Made by a program: the position numbers and the translations under genes. This document shows, in pieces, positions 1,065 to 57,860 of a stretch of DNA of 64,000 nt. The notes beneath the pieces were generated by a model, which did no database searches, had not been told where the DNA came from, and saw only the letters and a program-made list of their open reading frames with translations. Origin of the DNA: Acetoanaerobium noterae (GTDB lineage Bacteria > Bacillota > Clostridia > Peptostreptococcales > Filifactoraceae). The stretch covers positions 398,343 to 462,342 of the forward strand of contig NZ_FUYN01000002.1 in the NCBI RefSeq assembly GCF_900168025.1. The letters run 5' to 3'. The first letter of the stretch is position 1. Every line of letters begins with the position of its first letter.

Positions 1065-1165
1065 AATCAATAGGGACGGTTCTTATTGATTCTAGCTCTA
1101 ATAATCGATTTCAAAATGAAATAAAATTAAAACAGAGTGGTCAAAAAGAACCGTCCCTTTTGATT
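1065..1165. repeat. paired inverted repeat element of the GGGACGGTTCTT family (MITE-like copy)
   Basis: A left unit at 1065-1091 (AATCAATAGGGACGGTTCTT then ATTGATT) and an inverted right unit at 1141-1165 (TCAAAAAGAACCGTCCC then TTTTGATT) enclose about 50 bp. The inner right flank (GAGTGGTC before the right unit) matches the 3' end of the transposase gene at 56534-57346. Partial left-end fragments (AATCAATAGGG) also lie at 1044-1054. The element fills the gap between the chemotaxis receptor and the MazG-family gene. Confidence 0.85.
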
Positions 1166-3597: not shown

Positions 3598-4512
3598 TTG
3601 AAACTAGCATCGATAGATATTGGGACAAACTCTATGAGGCTACTTATTACCGATTATGAAAATGGATTTTCTAAGAGAAAAAAGTATACAAACATAACCA
3701 GAATAGGTAGAGGGGTAGATGAATTTGGATATATATCCAAAGAAGCCATAGACCGTAACATACATGCACTCAAGGAATTTGTTGAAATAGCCAAACACGA
3801 AGATTGCGAGGAAATATATGTCATGGGAACATCAGCTCTGAGAGATAGTAAAAACAAAGAGGAATTCATAGAAAGAGCAAAAAACGAAGCTGGAGTAAAT
3901 GTAGATATTATATCTGGCAATGATGAGGCATCGCTTGGATTTTATGGAGTAACAGCTGACCTAAAAGAAGAAGGCCAGGTTCTTATCCTAGATATAGGTG
4001 GAGGCTCAACAGAGTTTATCCTAGGGGATAAAACAGGCGGAATAGTTTTTAGCAAAAGTGAAAACATCGGCTCAGTAAGACTTACAGAAAAATTCATAAA
4101 ATCAGACCCAGTAGATGAAATCGAGCTAGAAAACATGGATGCCTATATCAAGGCAGTAACAGAAAACACCATATCAATCCTCAAAACCTACCCTATTACA
4201 AAGCTCATAGGTATCGGTGGAACTGCTACTACTATATCTGCTATGGTACAGCAGCTAGATGTCTACGATATGGAAAAAGTCCACCAAAGCCTAGTAATGT
4301 ATGAAGAGGTTGAAGCGATATTCAAAGACTTAAAATACAAAACCCTAGATGAAAAGCGAATGATAAAAGGCCTACAGCCTCAAAGAGCTGACGTAATAAC
4401 AGCAGGAGTAAATATCCTAAAAAATCTAATGTCCTACCTAGAAATGAAAGACATACTTATAAGCGAATACGACAACCTAGAAGGCCTAGTATACACAAAA
4501 AACAAAAACTAG
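3598..4512 (+). CDS. Ppx/GppA-family phosphatase (exopolyphosphatase or pppGpp phosphatase)
   Basis: A 304-residue member of the actin-like ATPase superfamily with the three expected signatures: phosphate loop 1 (ASIDIGTNSMRLLITD), the central GTSALRDSKNKEEFI region, and phosphate loop 2 (LDIGGGSTEFI), plus the GIGGTATTISAM segment. Only the catalytic Ppx-GppA core is present; the C-terminal HD-like extension of longer exopolyphosphatases is missing. The start is TTG with GGGGTGAAATAA upstream, 12 bases after divIC, so it is probably in the same operon. Sequence alone cannot separate polyphosphate from pppGpp as the substrate. Confidence 0.9.
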   Translation: MKLASIDIGTNSMRLLITDYENGFSKRKKYTNITRIGRGVDEFGYISKEAIDRNIHALKEFVEIAKHEDCEEIYVMGTSALRDSKNKEEFIERAKNEAGVNVDIISGNDEASLGFYGVTADLKEEGQVLILDIGGGSTEFILGDKTGGIVFSKSENIGSVRLTEKFIKSDPVDEIELENMDAYIKAVTENTISILKTYPITKLIGIGGTATTISAMVQQLDVYDMEKVHQSLVMYEEVEAIFKDLKYKTLDEKRMIKGLQPQRADVITAGVNILKNLMSYLEMKDILISEYDNLEGLVYTKNKN

Positions 4513-4525
4513 AATCAAAAGGTAG

Positions 4526-4552
4526 AATCAAAAGGGACGGTTCTTTTTGATT
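4526..4552. repeat. single GGGACGGTTCTT-family repeat unit
   Basis: AATCAAAAGGGACGGTTCT followed by TTTTGATT. The outer eight bases (AATCAAAA/TTTTGATT) pair perfectly, so one unit can fold as a hairpin with an 11-nt loop. It lies just after the ppx stop and is preceded by a partial AATCAAAAGG duplicate. Confidence 0.85.
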
Positions 4553-4590
4553 TTAAATCTAATTAAAACATATGGCTCTTAATTAAAAAG

Positions 4591-4633
4591 GGGACGGTTC
4601 TTGGTGATTTCAAAAATCACTAAGAACCGTCCC
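4591..4633. repeat. head-to-head pair of repeat units forming a 43-nt near-perfect palindrome
   Basis: The left arm GGGACGGTTCTTGGTGATTT (4591-4610) pairs with 4614-4633 with a single mismatch and a 3-nt centre. It belongs to the same GGGACGGTTCTT family. It lies between the convergent ppx (+) and stalk-domain (-) genes. With A-rich sequence on one side and T-rich on the other, it could act as a bidirectional terminator. Confidence 0.8.
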
Positions 4634-4652
4634 TTTTGATTTATTTTGATTT

Positions 4653-47509: not shown

Positions 47510-48253
47510 ATGATTCAGCCACATATACAGTGTGAAAAAGTAAGTAAGATGGTGCTACTGCCAGGAGATCCTCAAAGAGTAGATAGAGTAGGAGGCTTTC
47601 TGGACGATGCTGTAGTCATAGCAAATAATAGAGAGTTTAAGACTTTGACTGGAAGCTATAAAGGGATGCAGGTTACTGTTACTTCTACGGGAATAGGGGG
47701 AGCCTCAGCTGTGATTGCATTAGAGGAGCTGATAAACTGTGGGGGAGAGTACTTCATCAGAATAGGAAGCGCAGGAGCAGTTCAAAAGGATATAAACATA
47801 GGGGACCTTATAATCAGCATGGCATCAGTAAGAGAAGATGGGGCATCTGCTATGTATATCAATAAGGACTATCCAGCAGTATCTGATTTTGAAATATTGA
47901 CAGCCCTAAAAAACAACGCTGTGAAACTAGGCTATGAGCACCATGTGGGAGTAACTAGAAGCCATGACTCGTTTTATATAGATGATGAGATAGAAAAAAT
48001 GGAATTTTGGAACAAGAAAAATGTTCTAGGCTCAGATATGGAAACCGCATCGCTATTTGTAATAGGAAAGCTAAGAGGAGTAAAGGTAGGCTCAGTTCTA
48101 AACAACGTAGTGCTATATAGCAAGGATGTAAAAGACGGAGTGAATGATTATGTAAACCAAAAAGACCTAGCTCAGCAGGGAGAAGACAGAGAAATACTTC
48201 TCGCCCTAGAGTCCCTCCACGAAATCAAAATCAATAGGGACGGTTCTTTTTGA
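47510..48253 (+). CDS. nucleoside phosphorylase (uridine phosphorylase-like, PNP/UDP family)
   Basis: 247 residues. The fold and active site match the trimeric/hexameric PNP-UDP-1 family: MVLLPGDPQRVDRVG (phosphate site), STGIGGASAVIALEEL, FIRIGSAGAVQ, and the ribose-binding GSDMETASLFVIGKL. It splits a nucleoside with phosphate into base and ribose-1-phosphate. It closes the importer operon, so incoming nucleosides would be used here. The last nine residues (IKINRDGSF) and the TGA come from an inserted GGGACGGTTCTT repeat unit (48229-48255), so the native C-terminus has been replaced or extended. Confidence 0.9.
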   Translation: MIQPHIQCEKVSKMVLLPGDPQRVDRVGGFLDDAVVIANNREFKTLTGSYKGMQVTVTSTGIGGASAVIALEELINCGGEYFIRIGSAGAVQKDINIGDLIISMASVREDGASAMYINKDYPAVSDFEILTALKNNAVKLGYEHHVGVTRSHDSFYIDDEIEKMEFWNKKNVLGSDMETASLFVIGKLRGVKVGSVLNNVVLYSKDVKDGVNDYVNQKDLAQQGEDREILLALESLHEIKINRDGSF

Positions 48254-48364
48254 TTTTTGAATGTATCATTGAGAATGTTTTTTAATTATTATAGTTCTAT
48301 AAAAAACAATATTAAAAAAATAGATTTAAATGAAAGTGGTCAAAAAGAACCGTCCCTCATGATT
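48229..48364. repeat. MITE-like paired repeat element (internally deleted RAYT element)
   Basis: The left unit 48229-48255 starts AATCAATAGGGACGGTTCTT. The inverted right unit 48340-48364 reads TCAAAAAGAACCGTCCC, then TCATGATT. The inner flank 48293-48339 (ending TTAAATGAAAGTGG) aligns with the last 50 or so bases of the transposase gene (ending TTAAATGAGGGTGG, 57270-57318). The element therefore keeps both ends of the 56420-57343 element and has lost the middle. Its left unit supplies the stop codon of the phosphorylase gene. Confidence 0.85.
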
Positions 48365-48456: not shown

Positions 48457-48470
48457 AGAGGGTGATTGAA

Positions 48471-49448
48471 TTGGTTACTATTGTAGAAACATACTTAAAA
48501 GAAAATATCGATGAAGATATTAACATAAAACCGTGGCTTAAAAATGGCAACTTTCCAATTTTTTTAAGGGATAGCTATAACTTTTATGAGATGACAATCC
48601 TTGGAACGCAGTGTGTTTTATTAGAAGTCATTGCTGAGATGCCTAGCATAGATCAGCTTCAAAAGCATCTGAAGCAAATTAAAAATTTAACGAATTGTCA
48701 AATTGTTCTATTCTACAAAGATATCACTAGATATAGAAGGAAAAGTTTGATTAAAAATAAAATTTCCTTTGTGATTGAAGATGGACAGATGTACTTGCCA
48801 TTCTTGGGGCTTGATTTGAAAAAAGCTCAAGAATATTTTGTAGAAGAAATAAAAGAGTTTACAACACCTACTCAGATTGCTTATTTATACTTCTTGTATA
48901 ATAGGGAAGAAGTTGTGAACACTACTGAGTTTGCAAAAAAATTAGGGCTTAATAAAATGACAGCTTCTAGAGCGTTAAATGATTTATACAATTTGAATCT
49001 CATTAGATATGAAATTGGAGGGAAAACGGGCCGTAGCAAAGAATATAAGCGAATTTCAGATCCAGATTACTTTTTGAGAGGACGAGAATATCTAAAGACT
49101 CCCGTGAGAAGAATCATTTATGCAGAGTCAAAGCCTTTAGGTGCTTTGACTGCTGGATTAGATGCATTGGCAGTATTATCCATGATTAATCCATCAGGCC
49201 ATTCTATTATTGCAATAGAAAAAAATAAGTTAGATGAAAATCAGATTGAAATTGTTAAAAACAAGGATTTTATAAAAGATAAAAAACTAGTTGAAATAGA
49301 GCTTTGGGACTATGATCCTAGACTATTTTCTAATAGTAGCAATGTCGACATACTCTCTTTGTATGCTTCTTTAAAGGATGAAACCGATGAAAGAGTGGAG
49401 CAAGCTCTAGAAGACGTTTTGAGAGGTGAACTATGGTACACGGATTAG
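48471..49448 (+). CDS. AbiEi-like antitoxin / winged-helix regulator
   Basis: 325 residues. The N-terminal 120 residues form an alpha/beta domain (IFLRDSYNFYEMTILG, CQIVLFYKDITRYRR). A winged-helix domain follows at about 135-190 (TEFAKKLGLNKMTASRALND, LIRYEIGGKTGRSKEYKR). The C-terminal domain begins at TPVRRIIYAESKPLGALTAG. It is followed, with a 16-base overlap, by a nucleotidyltransferase of the AbiEii type. This order (HTH protein then transferase) is that of type IV toxin-antitoxin/phage-abortive operons. It is longer than classical AbiEi, so this is a variant. TTG 48471 is chosen, with GGTGA five bases upstream; a GTG at 48462 is the alternative. Confidence 0.6.
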   Translation: MVTIVETYLKENIDEDINIKPWLKNGNFPIFLRDSYNFYEMTILGTQCVLLEVIAEMPSIDQLQKHLKQIKNLTNCQIVLFYKDITRYRRKSLIKNKISFVIEDGQMYLPFLGLDLKKAQEYFVEEIKEFTTPTQIAYLYFLYNREEVVNTTEFAKKLGLNKMTASRALNDLYNLNLIRYEIGGKTGRSKEYKRISDPDYFLRGREYLKTPVRRIIYAESKPLGALTAGLDALAVLSMINPSGHSIIAIEKNKLDENQIEIVKNKDFIKDKKLVEIELWDYDPRLFSNSSNVDILSLYASLKDETDERVEQALEDVLRGELWYTD

Positions 49449-50194
49449 AAAAATTCAAAGCGTATTTTGAAAATCATACAAGTCAGTATGTGTTTATTGG
49501 AGGAACTGCTTGTGATATTCTTATGGATGAACTTGGTGCTCAATTTCGAGCAACAAAGGATTTGGACATAGTACTCATTATTGAGGCTCTAGATTCCTCT
49601 TTTGGAAAAACATTCTGGAAGTTTATAGAAGATGGCGGTTATGAAAATCGTCAGAGGGGAACTGGTGAAAATCAATTTTACCGTTTCACTGAACCGAAGG
49701 ATTCATCTTTTCCAAAAATGATTGAGCTCTTTAGTAAACTTCCTAATAAATTTGGACTTAGTTTCAATGGAGGACTAACGCCTATTCACATTGATGATAG
49801 CATAGTCAGTCTTTCTGCAATATTATTAAACGATGATTATTACAATTTATTACTAAAAGGGAAAAGTACAGTGGATGGATTTTCGCTCATTGAAATCGAA
49901 ACAGTTATCCTATTTAAGATTAAAGCATGGCTGGATATGAAAGAACGAAAAGAAGTCGGAGATGATATAGATACAAAAAATATAAAGAAACATAAGAATG
50001 ATGTATTTAGACTTCTAGCCAATGTATCTCCAGAAAGCAGAATTGAACTCTCAGAAGAAATTCAAAATGATGTAATGAAGTTCATTGAGCAACTCAAGGA
50101 AGATAAACCTGATTTGAAAAACTTAGGTATTAGAAGTGCGAGTTTTGATGAAATGCTAGAGATTCTAAGTGATATATTCTTAATTGAAAGATAA
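49433..50194 (+). CDS. AbiEii/AbiGii-like nucleotidyltransferase toxin
   Basis: 253 residues. The nucleotidyltransferase core is visible: YVFIGGTACDILMDELG (Gly-Gly at 23-24), then ATKDLDIVLII with the two metal-binding aspartates (about 43-45). ETVILFKIKAWLDMKERKE is a later conserved Lys-containing helix of this family. AbiEii/MenA-type toxins transfer nucleotides to RNA targets (tRNA for MenA), causing reversible growth arrest; they protect against phage. The ATG lies inside the end of the upstream gene after GAGAGGTG. The stop TAA is the first overlap with a repeat unit at 50193. Confidence 0.72.
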   Translation: MVHGLEKFKAYFENHTSQYVFIGGTACDILMDELGAQFRATKDLDIVLIIEALDSSFGKTFWKFIEDGGYENRQRGTGENQFYRFTEPKDSSFPKMIELFSKLPNKFGLSFNGGLTPIHIDDSIVSLSAILLNDDYYNLLLKGKSTVDGFSLIEIETVILFKIKAWLDMKERKEVGDDIDTKNIKKHKNDVFRLLANVSPESRIELSEEIQNDVMKFIEQLKEDKPDLKNLGIRSASFDEMLEILSDIFLIER

Positions 50195-50219
50195 TCAAAA
50201 AGAACCGTCCCTCATGATT
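50193..50219. repeat. single GGGACGGTTCTT-family unit (right-end type)
   Basis: AATCAAAAAGAACCGTCCC then TCATGATT, inverted relative to left units. It starts inside the TAA stop of the nucleotidyltransferase gene. Confidence 0.85.
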
Positions 50220-50239
50220 TTTTTAAAATTATCTGCATA

Positions 50240-50310: not shown

Positions 50311-51378
50311 GTGAAAGAGTTTAATTACAGAGAAATGAATAAGGAATTAATGGTTCCTGAGATCATGAATTTAGTGTCGAAAATCCATGAATTTAAAGGT
50401 AAACAAGAACTGCTCATGAGGGCAAAACCGGATATACTCAAGGCCATGCTGGAGGTAGCAAAGATTCAAAGTACCGGTGCGTCCAATAGAATTGAAGGGA
50501 TATTTACTTCGGACTCCAGGCTTGAAGAACTGGTTTCAAAAAAAGCAGAACCGATTAATAGAGATGAAGAGGAGATTGCAGGCTACAGGGAAGTTCTTAA
50601 TACAATACATGAAAATTACGATTATATAACATTAAAGTCAAGTGTAATTTTACAATTACACAGAGACCTTTATAGTTTTCATCCATTGAGCAATGGGGGA
50701 CGATATAAAAATCAAGACAATATTATTGAAGAAGTTGATGAAAAGGGAATTCGCAGAATTCGGTTTAAACCATTATCTGCTTTTGAGACGCCAGAAGCAG
50801 TAGAGAAATTATGCAGTGCTTATAATGAGTCTATTAATGATGGAAGAATTGACCCATTAATTTTAATTTCAAAGTTTGTATTAGATTTTCTAAGTATTCA
50901 TCCCTTTAATGATGGTAATGGAAGAATGAGCAGACTCATAACACTTTTACTTTTATACCAGCAAGGCTATATTGTAGGAAAGTATGTCAGTGTAGAGATG
51001 TTAATTGAAAGCACCAAGGAAAGTTATTATGAAACCCTTCAAGAAAGTTCAATAGGCTGGCATGAAAATGAGAACAATTATCTACCTTTTGTAAAGTACT
51101 ACTTAAGTATTTTATTGAAGGCCTATAGGGACTTCTCTGATAGGGTAGAAACCGTAGCTGTAGATAAAATGGGTAAATCAGAAAGAGTGAAAGATATTTT
51201 TGATAAGAAGGTTCATAAACTTTCAAAGAGAGAGATTGCAGACATTTATCCGGATATCAGTGTCACAACCATTGAAAAAGCACTTTCGGATTTACTGAAA
51301 GAGGGATACATCAAAAAGGTTGGATCTGGTAGAGGAACCGCCTATATTAAAATCAATAGGGACGGTTCTTTTTGGTAA
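50311..51378 (+). CDS. Fic-family protein (class II, with N-terminal inhibitory motif and C-terminal winged helix)
   Basis: 355 residues. The Fic catalytic motif HPFNDGNGRMSR is intact at about residues 197-208. The N-terminal inhibitory motif S-x-x-x-E-G is present as SNRIEG (58-63), so this is a self-inhibited class II Fic. A C-terminal winged helix follows (SKREIADIYPDISVTTIEKA, LSDLLKEGYIKKVGSGRG). The reaction is usually AMP transfer from ATP to a protein hydroxyl; the target is unknown. GTG 50311 is chosen, with TAGGTGA six bases upstream. The final residues INRDGSFW and the TAA come from the inserted repeat at 51351. Confidence 0.92.
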   Translation: MKEFNYREMNKELMVPEIMNLVSKIHEFKGKQELLMRAKPDILKAMLEVAKIQSTGASNRIEGIFTSDSRLEELVSKKAEPINRDEEEIAGYREVLNTIHENYDYITLKSSVILQLHRDLYSFHPLSNGGRYKNQDNIIEEVDEKGIRRIRFKPLSAFETPEAVEKLCSAYNESINDGRIDPLILISKFVLDFLSIHPFNDGNGRMSRLITLLLLYQQGYIVGKYVSVEMLIESTKESYYETLQESSIGWHENENNYLPFVKYYLSILLKAYRDFSDRVETVAVDKMGKSERVKDIFDKKVHKLSKREIADIYPDISVTTIEKALSDLLKEGYIKKVGSGRGTAYIKINRDGSFW

Positions 51379-51620
51379 TCAATAGGGACGGTTCTTTTTG
51401 GTAATCAATAGGGACGGTTCTTTTTGGTAATCAATAGGGACGGTAATCAATAGGGACGGTTCTTTTTGATTTTTGTAAGAATCTGAATTAAAAGAGAAGG
51501 TTCTTAATGATTATTGCTCTATTTAAAAACAATTATAAAAAAATAGAATTAAATGAAAGTGGTCAAAAAGAACCGTCCCTCATGATTGGTCGTCCCTCAT
51601 GATTTAGTCTCTCATGATTT
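51351..51620. repeat. expanded MITE-like element with tandem left units
   Basis: A 26-bp left unit starting AATCAATAGGGACGGTTCTT occurs three times in exact tandem (51351-51376, 51377-51402, 51403-51428). It is followed by a 16-bp partial and a full end unit (51445-51471). The inverted right unit is at 51563-51587, followed by two decayed partial right units up to 51620. The inner flank from 51516 aligns with the transposase gene from 57270 (GCTCTATT, AAAAACAATT, TAGAATTAAATGA). The tandem block overlaps the 3' end of fic. This fills the gap before the GntR gene. Confidence 0.88.
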
Positions 51621-53300: not shown

Positions 53301-54773
53301 ATGACGCAGGAAATGATTGAATATATTGTTTGGGAAGTGCTTTGGGGTACTCCATTAATCATAACTATTTTAGCAATAGGAGTTTACTATACGTTTAGGA
53401 CAGGATTTTTTCAATTCAGATTTTTAAAGCATGCGGTTGAAAAAGCAATAGAGCAAATTAAGCCAGATAAGGCAAATCAAGGTGATGGAGTTATAAGCTC
53501 ATTTCAAGCTATGAGCTTAGCGCTTGGAACTACTGTTGGGGTAGGAAATATAGGTGGAGTAGCTGCTGCGATTGCTATAGGAGGTCCAGGAGCAATCTTT
53601 TGGATGTGGGTAGCGGGTTTACTTGGTATGATTATTAAAACCTCAGAAATAACTTTGGCAGTATATTATCGTTCTCATAATAAGGATGGTTCAACGTATG
53701 GTGGACCAAACTATTATATGAAAAAAGGTATAGGCATTGAAAAAGGTATGAACAAGGTTTTTAAAGTTCTAAGTGCAATTTTTGCTTTTGGATTTTTAGT
53801 TAGTTTGGTCATCAATATACAGATATATACAGTGGCTGAGGCTGTAGCAACGACTTTTAACATGAATATGATGCTTATGGCAGCAATATTTACTGGAATT
53901 TTGTATATTATGATATCAGGAGGACTTAAAGGACTAGGAAGAATTGCAGGAACTCTAGTACCATTTATGGTTGGGTTTTATCTTATCGCAGGTTTGTTTA
54001 TAATATTTAAAAATATCACTATGCTTCCAGAGAGTTTTGCACTTATATTTTCTAGTGCATTTACAGGAACTGCAGCAGTTGGTGGTTTTGGTGGAGCGGC
54101 ATTTTCACATGCTATAAAAACAGGAATGGCTAGATCAGTGTTTTCAAATGAAGCTGGATGGGGCTCGGCACCTATGGTTCATGCTTCAGCAAAAGTTGAC
54201 CATCCTGTAAAGCAAGGAATTTTGGGCATATTTGAGGTAATGGTGGATACCTTATTTATTTGCAGTATAACTGCTCTGGTTATTATGGTTACAGGACAGT
54301 GGTCTTCAGGGCTTTCTGGAGCAGAGCTTACACTTAGTGCCTTTGAAGTAGGTATAGGAAGCTGGGGACGTATTATATTGGCTGTTGGAACTTTCTTGTT
54401 TGGAATTACTACAGCAAGTGGTATTTATGCTCAGATGGAAGTAGTAATAAGATACCTAATAGGCGAATCTAAGTCAAAGGATATGATTCTTACAGCTTAC
54501 AAATGGCTGTATCCACTTCCGGGCTTGGGACTAGTTATAATAGCAGTGTATTATGGTTTCCCAGGTACTACTGTGTGGTTATTTTCAGATATGTCTACAG
54601 CACTTCCGATATTTGCAAATGTTGTAGCACTTATGATATTAAGCCCTAAGGTACTTGAACTTTTAAATGACTATAAAGCAAGATTCTTAGGGATAGGTAA
54701 AGTTAACCCAAATATTAAACTATTTTATGAAGATGATGACATAGAAGAAATCATTAGGGACGGTTCTTCTTGA
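53301..54773 (+). CDS. sodium:alanine symporter family protein (AGCS)
   Basis: 490 residues with about 11 membrane segments. AGCS signatures: ALGTTVGVGNIGGVAAAIAI, GGPGAIFWMWVAGLLGMIIK, GGAAFSHAIKTGMARSVFSN, EAGWGSAPMVHASAKVDHPV. It carries alanine, glycine or a related amino acid with sodium. It lies 23 bases after the DDAH gene, probably in the same GntR-controlled operon. The last residues (EEIIRDGSS) and the stop come from a repeat unit (54749-54775). Confidence 0.93.
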   Translation: MTQEMIEYIVWEVLWGTPLIITILAIGVYYTFRTGFFQFRFLKHAVEKAIEQIKPDKANQGDGVISSFQAMSLALGTTVGVGNIGGVAAAIAIGGPGAIFWMWVAGLLGMIIKTSEITLAVYYRSHNKDGSTYGGPNYYMKKGIGIEKGMNKVFKVLSAIFAFGFLVSLVINIQIYTVAEAVATTFNMNMMLMAAIFTGILYIMISGGLKGLGRIAGTLVPFMVGFYLIAGLFIIFKNITMLPESFALIFSSAFTGTAAVGGFGGAAFSHAIKTGMARSVFSNEAGWGSAPMVHASAKVDHPVKQGILGIFEVMVDTLFICSITALVIMVTGQWSSGLSGAELTLSAFEVGIGSWGRIILAVGTFLFGITTASGIYAQMEVVIRYLIGESKSKDMILTAYKWLYPLPGLGLVIIAVYYGFPGTTVWLFSDMSTALPIFANVVALMILSPKVLELLNDYKARFLGIGKVNPNIKLFYEDDDIEEIIRDGSS

Positions 54774-54775
54774 TT
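54749..54775. repeat. single GGGACGGTTCTT-family unit (left-end type)
   Basis: AATCATTAGGGACGGTTCTT then CTTGATT. It overlaps the 3' end of the symporter gene and supplies its stop codon. Confidence 0.85.
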
Positions 54776-54840
54776 CTTTTGATTGAGAGCTAAAAGACAT
54801 TCAGTATTATATCTATTATTTTAATATATTTATTTTGACT

Positions 54841-56419: not shown

Positions 56420-57343
56420 AATCAATAGGGACGGTTAGAATCATTAGGGACGGTTCTTTTTGATTTTTGTTAAATAGGAATTTTATGGTAAAATTAACTA
56501 AATATTTGAGATTATAATTGTGAGGTGAGTATGATGCCAAGACAAGCTAGAGAGATAAGTGAATCTGGATACTATCATGTGATTATGAGAGGCAATAACA
56601 AGGAATATATCTTTGAAGACCGATTGAGTAAGCAAATTTTCATGAATCAATTATTGAAGATATGTGATGAGAAACTGTTGGATCTCTTAGCATGGTGTAT
56701 TATGGACAATCATGTGCACCTTGTTGTAAAAACTTCACCTGAGGATTTGGGGATAGCTTTTAAACGTATTAATATTAAATATGCTATTTGGTATAATAAA
56801 ACTTATGATAAAATAGGCCATGTTTTTCAAGACAGGTTTATAAGCGAAGCGATTGAGTCAGACGAATATCTTATGATGGTCATTAGATACATCCACAACA
56901 ATCCTTTAAAAGCCAACATTGTAGATAGCTGTGAAAAATATGAGTGGAGTAGCTATACATTGTTTACTGGAAAATTTATTCCTGAGCCTATGAAAATAGT
57001 TATGGAAATGTTTCAAAATGATTTAAAAGCATTTAAGGATTTTCATAAGATGGAAGATGACAAAGAATATTTAGAGATAAAAGAGGATAAGCAAAAATTT
57101 AGAGAAGCAAAAATTCAAAAAACTATTGAAGAATTTTGCATCAAATATAATATAAGTAAATTAGAAAATAAAGTAATGACGCCTGAGATGAAGACGGAAA
57201 TAATAGAATCATTAATAGGTTGTGGTCTTAGTATAAGAACGATTTCGGATATATTGGGGGCTCCATATAGCTCTATTCAAAAACAATTTAAGAAAGTAAT
57301 AGAATTAAATGAGGGTGGTCAAAAAGAACCGTCCATACTGATT
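56420..57343 (+). mobile_element. complete REP/RAYT-type element: transposase gene between inverted repeat units
   Basis: The left end has a partial unit (56420-56436) and a full unit (56439-56465, AATCATTAGGGACGGTTCTT then TTTGATT). The right end is an inverted unit (57319-57343, TCAAAAAGAACCGTCCA then TACTGATT). Between them lies one gene, a REP-associated tyrosine transposase. The right unit encodes the transposase C-terminal residues, and its TGA stop is immediately outside. At least three shorter elements in the window share both ends of this one, which marks it as the likely autonomous parent. Confidence 0.8.
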
Positions 57344-57346
57344 TGA
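56534..57346 (+). CDS. REP-associated tyrosine transposase (RAYT, IS200-like HUH/Y1 family)
   Basis: 270 residues. The N-terminus MPRQAREISESGYYHVIMRG is the RAYT opening. The HUH metal-binding motif is HVH at 60-62 (CIMDNHVHLVVKTSPEDLG). The single catalytic tyrosine is Tyr119 in VIRYIHNNPLKANIV. These enzymes nick single-stranded DNA and form a 5'-phosphotyrosine link. A basic C-terminal part (about 200-265) includes a helix-turn-helix-like segment (LSIRTISDILGAPYSSIQKQ). All catalytic residues are intact. ATG 56534 is chosen: AGGTGA lies five bases upstream, and family proteins start MPR. The GTG 56525 and ATG 56531 are alternatives. The C-terminal residues GGQKEPSILI are encoded by the terminal repeat. 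Confidence 0.93.
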   Translation: MPRQAREISESGYYHVIMRGNNKEYIFEDRLSKQIFMNQLLKICDEKLLDLLAWCIMDNHVHLVVKTSPEDLGIAFKRINIKYAIWYNKTYDKIGHVFQDRFISEAIESDEYLMMVIRYIHNNPLKANIVDSCEKYEWSSYTLFTGKFIPEPMKIVMEMFQNDLKAFKDFHKMEDDKEYLEIKEDKQKFREAKIQKTIEEFCIKYNISKLENKVMTPEMKTEIIESLIGCGLSIRTISDILGAPYSSIQKQFKKVIELNEGGQKEPSILI

Positions 57347-57709: not shown

Positions 57710-57788
57710 GTTTTATTTAGGCGGAATAGGGCTTCCATTATAAGAGCTAAAATTTGTATCATTAATTACGATAAAAGAATTAAAATAA

Positions 57789-57815
57789 AATCAAAAAGAA
57801 CCGTCCCTTTTGATT
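57789..57815. repeat. single GGGACGGTTCTT-family unit
   Basis: AATCAAAAAGAACCGTCCC then TTTTGATT. Perfect 8-bp outer arms make a hairpin around AGAACCGTCCC. An extra TTTTGATT follows. It lies between the glutaredoxin and ATPase genes. Confidence 0.87.
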
Positions 57816-57860
57816 CTTTTGATTTAAAAAATGTATAGTTTAAATTAGACTAAATACGAC

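Follow-up and report, generated by a model that had tools for sequence, protein, structure and literature searches.

How REP-like repeats arise from RAYTs (REP-associated tyrosine transposases) is an open question on which the genome of Acetoanaerobium noterae bears: a RAYT, gutted copies with its coding end and bare units occur in this one genome and, together with a case in a relative (G021, see below), provide direct sequence evidence for the step from an autonomous to a miniature element. The window, i.e., the whole stretch of DNA analyzed, is 64,000 nucleotides of contig NZ_FUYN01000002.1, and positions below are those of the window unless a contig (C1, C2, etc.) is named. Judged from sequence, the probable course of events is that a RAYT lying between terminal units gave rise, by loss of its reading frame, to miniature elements that retain the coding end and that were spread locally in trans by the RAYT. 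The RAYT element consists of the following parts, preceded by a partial unit.

56420..56438, plus strand: partial left unit, directly after the selO stop codon and outside the full left unit (assigned by sequence)
56439..56465, plus strand: LE, the element's left unit, AATCATTAGGGACGGTTCTTTTTGATT, 27 nt
56525..57346, plus strand: ORF encoding the RAYT (HUH/Y1 transposase), 273 aa if counted from GTG; ATG 56531 or 56534 is the likely start
57266..57316, plus strand: 3' coding end retained partly or wholly in the miniature elements according to anchored alignments; approximately residues 248-264, end of the HTH region
57317..57343, plus strand: RE, the element's right unit, which falls within the ORF end; core mismatch

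The first-pass annotation had placed a complete HUH/Y1 transposase gene between inverted terminal units, and was right in both coordinates and anatomy: the element spans 56439-57343, and the ORF matches Pfam Y1_Tnp (E 6.5e-15), which is the only Y1_Tnp match in this genome (2.81 Mb, 99.92% complete). The best NCBIfam match is REP_Tyr_transpos (REP-associated tyrosine transposase), whose 74.6 bits are below the cut-off of 80. The right unit, GGTCAAAAAGAACCGTCCATACTGATT, lies within the last codons of the ORF with the stop codon directly beyond it, and its core carries a mismatch (TGGACGG on the other strand). In an alignment of 17 sequences, the HVH and Y---NP (here YIHNNP) motifs are conserved, Tyr120, Asn124 and Pro125 being invariant, and the RAYT ORF is intact; a profile built from 17 relatives matches TnpAREP 4er8 (E 1.1e-5). 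HTH_23 is detected in 5 of the 17 aligned relatives (E up to 0.1), and the window protein, which has no HTH match of its own, nevertheless aligns through this region. Relatives in named genomes were found at 17 loci, including those of Soehngenia, Tissierella and Maledivibacter, with best identities of 46-47% in a search from which own-genome records were possibly excluded. A single-sequence structure prediction (mean pLDDT 41) is not taken as evidence. The RAYT, with this motif and flanking inverted repeats, is probably of the TIRYT/RAYT group 1/TnpAY1 subclass 2.1 type.

Further copies of the units, with or without a remnant of the gene, are as follows.

1065..1165, plus strand: element A, 101 nt; RAYT 3' flank in a decayed state, each outer side with partial units
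4508..4643, plus strand: mosaic of one left unit plus a pair of inverted units, in which no RAYT remnant was found
48229..48364, plus strand: element B, 136 nt (82 nt between LE and RE); right flank with RAYT 3' end
50191..50221, minus strand: solo unit between two codirectional ORFs
51351..51444, plus strand: left units in tandem, of which three have 26 nt and one is a 16-nt partial; the first ends an upstream Fic-family ORF
51445..51587, plus strand: element C, 143 nt; right flank with RAYT 3' end
51588..51619, plus strand: two partial right-unit pieces outside element C
54749..54776, plus strand: solo left-type unit, which ends an upstream AgcS-family ORF
57787..57823, minus strand: solo unit and partial outer copy, downstream of a glutaredoxin-like ORF
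C2 at approximately 397.6, 396.7 and 366.2 kb, same direction as the RAYT: elements D, E and F, outside the window

Thus, six further two-ended elements have the ends of the RAYT element, three in the window (A, B and C) and three outside (D, E and F). Element B and the more decayed element A had been recognized as such at first reading, whereas the region 51351-51620, taken then for one element, contains a full element only at 51445-51587, the rest being a compound array of left units and partial pieces. The core GGGACGGTTCTT occurs 18 times in the window with up to two mismatches (1.5 expected) and GGTCAAAAAGAACCGTCC 15 times with up to three (0.03 expected); these counts rule out chance as the source of the repeats. 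The copies have diverged from one another, and whole elements fold strongly as DNA (z -5.8 to -8.1). When the N-terminal and core parts of the protein were searched for in this genome, the RAYT segment alone matched, and elements A-F carry no transposase. Between element B and the solo unit at 50191, two overlapping ORFs (48462-50194), winged-helix-like and nucleotidyltransferase-like, form a pair which presumably resembles AbiE-type toxin-antitoxin systems; a family search gave a weak Lrs14 match and nothing further.

Whether the miniature elements derive from the transposase gene was analyzed by aligning their inner right flanks to the RAYT 3' end, anchored at RE, with 500 shuffles per flank. 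Seven of the eight flanks exceed all 500 shuffles (scores: B 44, C 56, D 47, D2 37, E 42, A 22 and F 30; best of 500 shuffles 12-20), in agreement with the earlier proposal that these flanks align with the 3' coding end of the transposase gene, and the match spans 31-51 nt of that end; the 20-nt E2 flank scores 10, which was matched by 12 of 500 shuffles. With anchors at 500 random window positions, the observed score was reached 0-2 times, and some random anchors in the tests of B and C scored up to 152-166, which we take to fall inside the RAYT itself. Without anchoring, and with a RAYT reference missing 12 nt, the signal was weaker: of the eight flanks, C alone exceeded all 300 shuffles. 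The anchored test supersedes this result. The left inner flanks have no match to the RAYT 5' side beyond the unit, and homology is present at the 3' side only. The alignment between B and C covers 67 inner nt and that between D and E all 38 inner nt, so that at least two derivative lineages are inferred. The lost stretch seems to extend from the left unit's edge to a point 31-51 nt before the right unit. As in a MITE, the inner sequence derives, by alignment and on one side, from the autonomous element. The alignments support the proposal of the first-pass annotation that coding sequence makes up part of the repeats, which have the appearance of true deletion derivatives; this holds, through the retained coding end and the case of G021, for the 3' side.

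The case of G021 came from a tblastn search with C-terminal 75-aa tails against 84 partly overlapping segments centered on units in 15 genomes. In the A. noterae genome, six places hold remnants that lack the N-terminal part (3.3e-6 to 6.7e-4; the right unit encodes some of the residues in each match). G021 likewise has such a remnant (6e-9), and there the element keeps approximately 31 codons of the C-terminal HTH, 58% identical to the G021 RAYT (1.4e-10). This RAYT is 44% identical to that of A. noterae over residues 12-253, and G021 units have the same AATCA/TGATT arms. The presence of HTH codons in the G021 element supports the direction from gene to repeat. A second match in G021 is weak (6e-4, 33%), and a match in G018 may be a full gene as it ends at the contig end; among the units fetched, no clear coding-end derivative was found in 13 of the 15 genomes. 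In the G021 derivative (L079:5878-6160, G021:C17), three left units are nested, and the HTH frame is open for approximately 30 codons with a stop just before the right unit.

In the mechanism that we favor, near-complete loss of the reading frame would spare the 27-nt left unit together with the right unit and approximately 31-51 nt of coding end, and this would have happened probably at least twice, producing the B/C type and the D/E type. The gutted copies hold the end of the transposase gene, which ties a little-understood class of transposase to repeats that it probably once distributed. Acting in trans on single-stranded DNA, the RAYT would probably have spread the miniatures within approximately 90 kb of itself, with insertions mostly at gene 3' ends and in one orientation, a pattern with which a single-strand intermediate inserting near its donor would fit; both the RAYT as mover of the repeats and the single-strand route are inferred. 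Neither a second full-length copy of the RAYT element in this genome nor a clean empty site at the fic and selO genes of the same-genus genome G001 or at the C1 terminator (see below) was found, orthologous gene ends being present with flanks too diverged. These two results count against this mechanism, as do the unmatched left flanks, the 13 of 15 genomes above, the closest RAYT in G021, beside which no unit was found (its 5' side runs off the contig), the four unit-bearing genomes without a RAYT match, the confounded orientation and the weak folding of single units (the last three are described below). The further suggestion that the intact transposase could still move these elements gains no support from the single full-length copy, the missing clean empty site, the divergence of the copies and the mismatch in the RE core.

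The units are placed at gene 3' ends, a position familiar from REPs. Nine of the 12 own elements begin between -28 and +9 nt from a codirectional stop codon, where 2.8% of positions would lie by chance, although B, C and the solo left unit are near a stop partly by construction because the unit itself supplies the stop. The left units at 48229-48253, 51351-51378 and 54749-54773 give three upstream ORFs their last residues and stop (INRDGSF, INRDGSFW and IIRDGSS); the first of these ORFs, ended by the LE of element B, is phosphorylase-like, the Fic ORF is short of its G001 homolog by the last few residues only, and the AgcS ORF spans the whole family profile. The three elements farther from a stop are H, at 148 nt and following a minus-strand ORF, D, at 896 nt, where a gene may have been overlooked, and the solo unit at 57787, at 77 nt. 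Where a unit side in relatives comes within 30 nt of an ORF end (72 groups, with ORFs defined by length only), that end is a gene 3' end in 52 cases and a gene 5' end in 12. Between convergent genes on C1, a solo unit (L035:2560-2607, approximately 588.6 kb) is located within the loop of a hairpin resembling a terminator (RNA fold z -4.2); at the orthologous place G001 has a terminator-like sequence without a unit, with flanks too diverged for a clean junction.

This placement also suits an explanation in which the units are gene-end hairpins retained by the host for termination, mRNA stability or stop supply, their spread being past and the RAYT no longer moving them. It is a real possibility, if short of probable: units abut gene 3' ends, the C1 unit occupies a terminator-like hairpin loop, divergence is seen among the copies and there is a mismatch in the RE core of the RAYT element itself, whereas the intact RAYT ORF with conserved motifs speaks against it, and tandem and nested units point to repeated activity at some time.

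The copies are concentrated in one part of the genome: of the 27 exact GGGACGGTTCTT cores, 25 lie within C2:363677-456149 (92 kb, RAYT included), and the others are single ones on C1 and C6. The binomial value for this clustering (2.7e-35) overstates it because units in arrays are not independent. A foreign island behind the clustering has no support, as the GC content of the window is 0.339 compared with 0.31-0.40 in other stretches of the genome, and five gene-length matches of the window to G001 (67-86%) also count against it. All seven elements with distinguishable ends (A-F and the RAYT element) are in one orientation, a count that omits the mosaic at 4508-4643, whose ends give no direction, and single-ended copies. 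This orientation is confounded with gene direction because 69 of the 81 ORFs on the fetched C2 stretches are on the plus strand, which is that of the elements, and 12 are on the other; GC skew of the window is +0.18.

Partial copies adjoin many units on the outside. In the 36 nt adjoining a unit on its outer side, a hexamer of the outer arm is found again for 14 of 27 own units and 29 of 104 units of relatives (counts to which tandem arrays add); the corresponding figures are 0-1 of 27 and 0-3 of 104 for three stretches farther out, and 4 of 27 and 15 of 104 on the inner side. The idea that these copies end at the hairpin apex was ruled out, as their ends are scattered (57 cases, 19 own). Recombination, slippage or segmental duplication, rather than transposition, might have produced such local copies, and the tandem left units at 51351-51444, the nearly identical inner regions of D and E (approximately 1 kb apart) and the partial outer copies at 14 of 27 own units agree with this; it is nonetheless unlikely to account for the set, as most two-ended elements follow different genes and have dissimilar outer flanks where these were read. 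That the repeats came first, the RAYT having gained its 3' end from a repeat on landing between two units, is very improbable: the right unit does encode the last residues of the RAYT, and most relatives lack a counterpart of the tail beyond approximately residue 257, but the common segment extends into the region aligning with the C-terminal HTH of relatives, and the segment retained in G021 is unmistakable HTH coding sequence, which already weakens this explanation.

The favored mechanism of frame loss and spread by the RAYT draws support from the matching right flanks, the C-terminal remnants, the clustering of cores around the only Y1_Tnp gene, the common orientation, the association of units with RAYT matches (see below) and the complementary arms of the end units. 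By comparison between genomes, an end unit is an arm, a GGGACGGTTC core and a complementary arm, the arms covarying from genome to genome. Own units end in AATCA...TGATT or GGTCA...TGATT, and the hairpin foot lacks a GT[AG]G tag. Of 30 RAYT loci obtained by searching relatives, the present one included, 18 have the gene between exact inverted repeats of at least 11 nt (a count without a chance control); GGACGG is present in 15 of those 18, and the exact core occurs on at least one side at 20 of 30. The arms flanking the core differ between genomes and stay complementary in one register: over eight positions in 32 units, complementarity is 71.5% Watson-Crick, compared with 42.7 +/- 3.4% for permuted arms (0 of 2000 as high) and 27-38% in slid registers. 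Arm similarity tracks RAYT identity (Mantel r 0.46 for inner and 0.50 for outer arms, 0 of 5000, n=23, a set picked by best-paired unit), and both statistics ignore shared ancestry. As DNA, LE alone folds with z -1.9 (14 of 200 shuffles as good) and RE no better than shuffles; single units thus fold weakly, and the hairpin claim therefore rests on covariation.

The arms would set the specificity of end recognition, and their covariation offers a testable code for it. In IS608-type ends, a guide sequence pairs with the cleavage site. The arms could be the counterpart of this pairing, and plain hairpin recognition fits equally. Somewhat speculatively, Clostridia group 1 RAYTs might be true single-strand transposons, with the outer arm as cleavage or target site and the inner arm as guide, each lineage having re-set its target by changing both arms with the GGGACGGTTC core fixed, and the derivatives hopping locally behind the replication fork. 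If so, these elements would offer a natural set of re-targeted single-strand transposases, with autonomous element, gutted offspring and bare units side by side.

The units are associated with RAYTs in other genomes. Of 148 relatives, 12 carry the 16-mer GGGACGGTTCTTTTTG, and each of these has a RAYT protein match, as do 73 of the 148 overall (Fisher 1.3e-4). The 16-mer is also present in 25 of 391 genomes of a class sample, 21 of them with a match, which 130 of the 391 have (Fisher 9.5e-8, and 2.5e-6 without the 20 genomes common to both samples). Both samples include the A. noterae genome, and the class search scored up to six candidates per genome with RAYT matches not limited to the exact clade. 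The first-pass reading would have been refuted had the same repeats been common in genomes without a RAYT of this clade, and the outcome (12 of 12 and 21 of 25) runs against such a refutation; the unit-bearing class genomes without a RAYT match are G199, G312, G339 and G510.

The family itself is already known (TIRYT, RAYT group 1 or TnpAY1 subclass 2.1). TIRtrons and TIRYTs were named by Di Nocera 2013; in the available parts of that paper, a TIRYT is a RAYT-like gene flanked by inverted repeats which recur in the genome as dimers or clusters, share in many cases a GGGGWSAS motif and may overlap the gene 3' end (PMC3733652). The present element likewise has inverted repeats around a RAYT, recurrent in the genome and overlapping the gene 3' end; unlike TIRYTs as described there, its repeats keep transposase coding sequence, and its units are self-complementary around GGGACGGTTC with covarying arms (PMC3733652). 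According to the sections available of Quentin 2018, subclass 2.1 takes 291 of 292 RAYT group 1 sequences, probably equals TIRtrons/TIRYTs and showed no REP-like sequences near its genes (PMC6006769). The Y---NP motif, the HTH-like C-terminal region in relatives and GGGG[AT][CG]A[CG]-like inverted repeats agree with that subclass as characterized there, whereas REP-like units and miniature derivatives are present here (PMC6006769).

Miniature elements moved by RAYTs were proposed, in the parts available, by Bertels and Rainey 2011 (PMC3116915) and Nunvar 2010 (PMC2817692). Inverted pairs of short palindromic units, a single-copy RAYT as their proposed mover in trans and units at gene 3' ends are shared with the REPIN and REP-RAYT systems as outlined there (PMC3116915; PMC2817692); in contrast, the units listed here have no GTAG tag and are clustered near the RAYT, and the spacer is a RAYT gene remnant. 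With IS200/IS605 elements (IS608 and ISDra2) the RAYT shares Y1 chemistry; as far as covered in the same parts of Quentin 2018, this enzyme class cuts and joins single strands and two members of IS200/IS605 have a lagging-strand preference (PMC6006769). Unlike these, the present RAYT has the class 2 Y---NP motif instead of class 1 Y---Q (PMC6006769), is single copy and has no separate subterminal hairpin that was recognized. In the available parts of the TIRYT, TIRtron and RAYT group 1 literature, no description was found of coding-end derivatives, arms that covary around a fixed core following the transposase, clustering within approximately 92 kb at the RAYT or ragged outer partial copies, and among the matches listed for the literal unit strings, titles concern unrelated subjects only.

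The same-genus genome G001 carries a different RAYT (37% identical), which is flanked by other GGGACG-containing repeats, of the GGGGACGTATC type (L077, G001:C7 at approximately 56 kb; L073, G001:C50). A repeat of this type also lies upstream of the G001 fic gene, near where the A. noterae genome has a solo unit.
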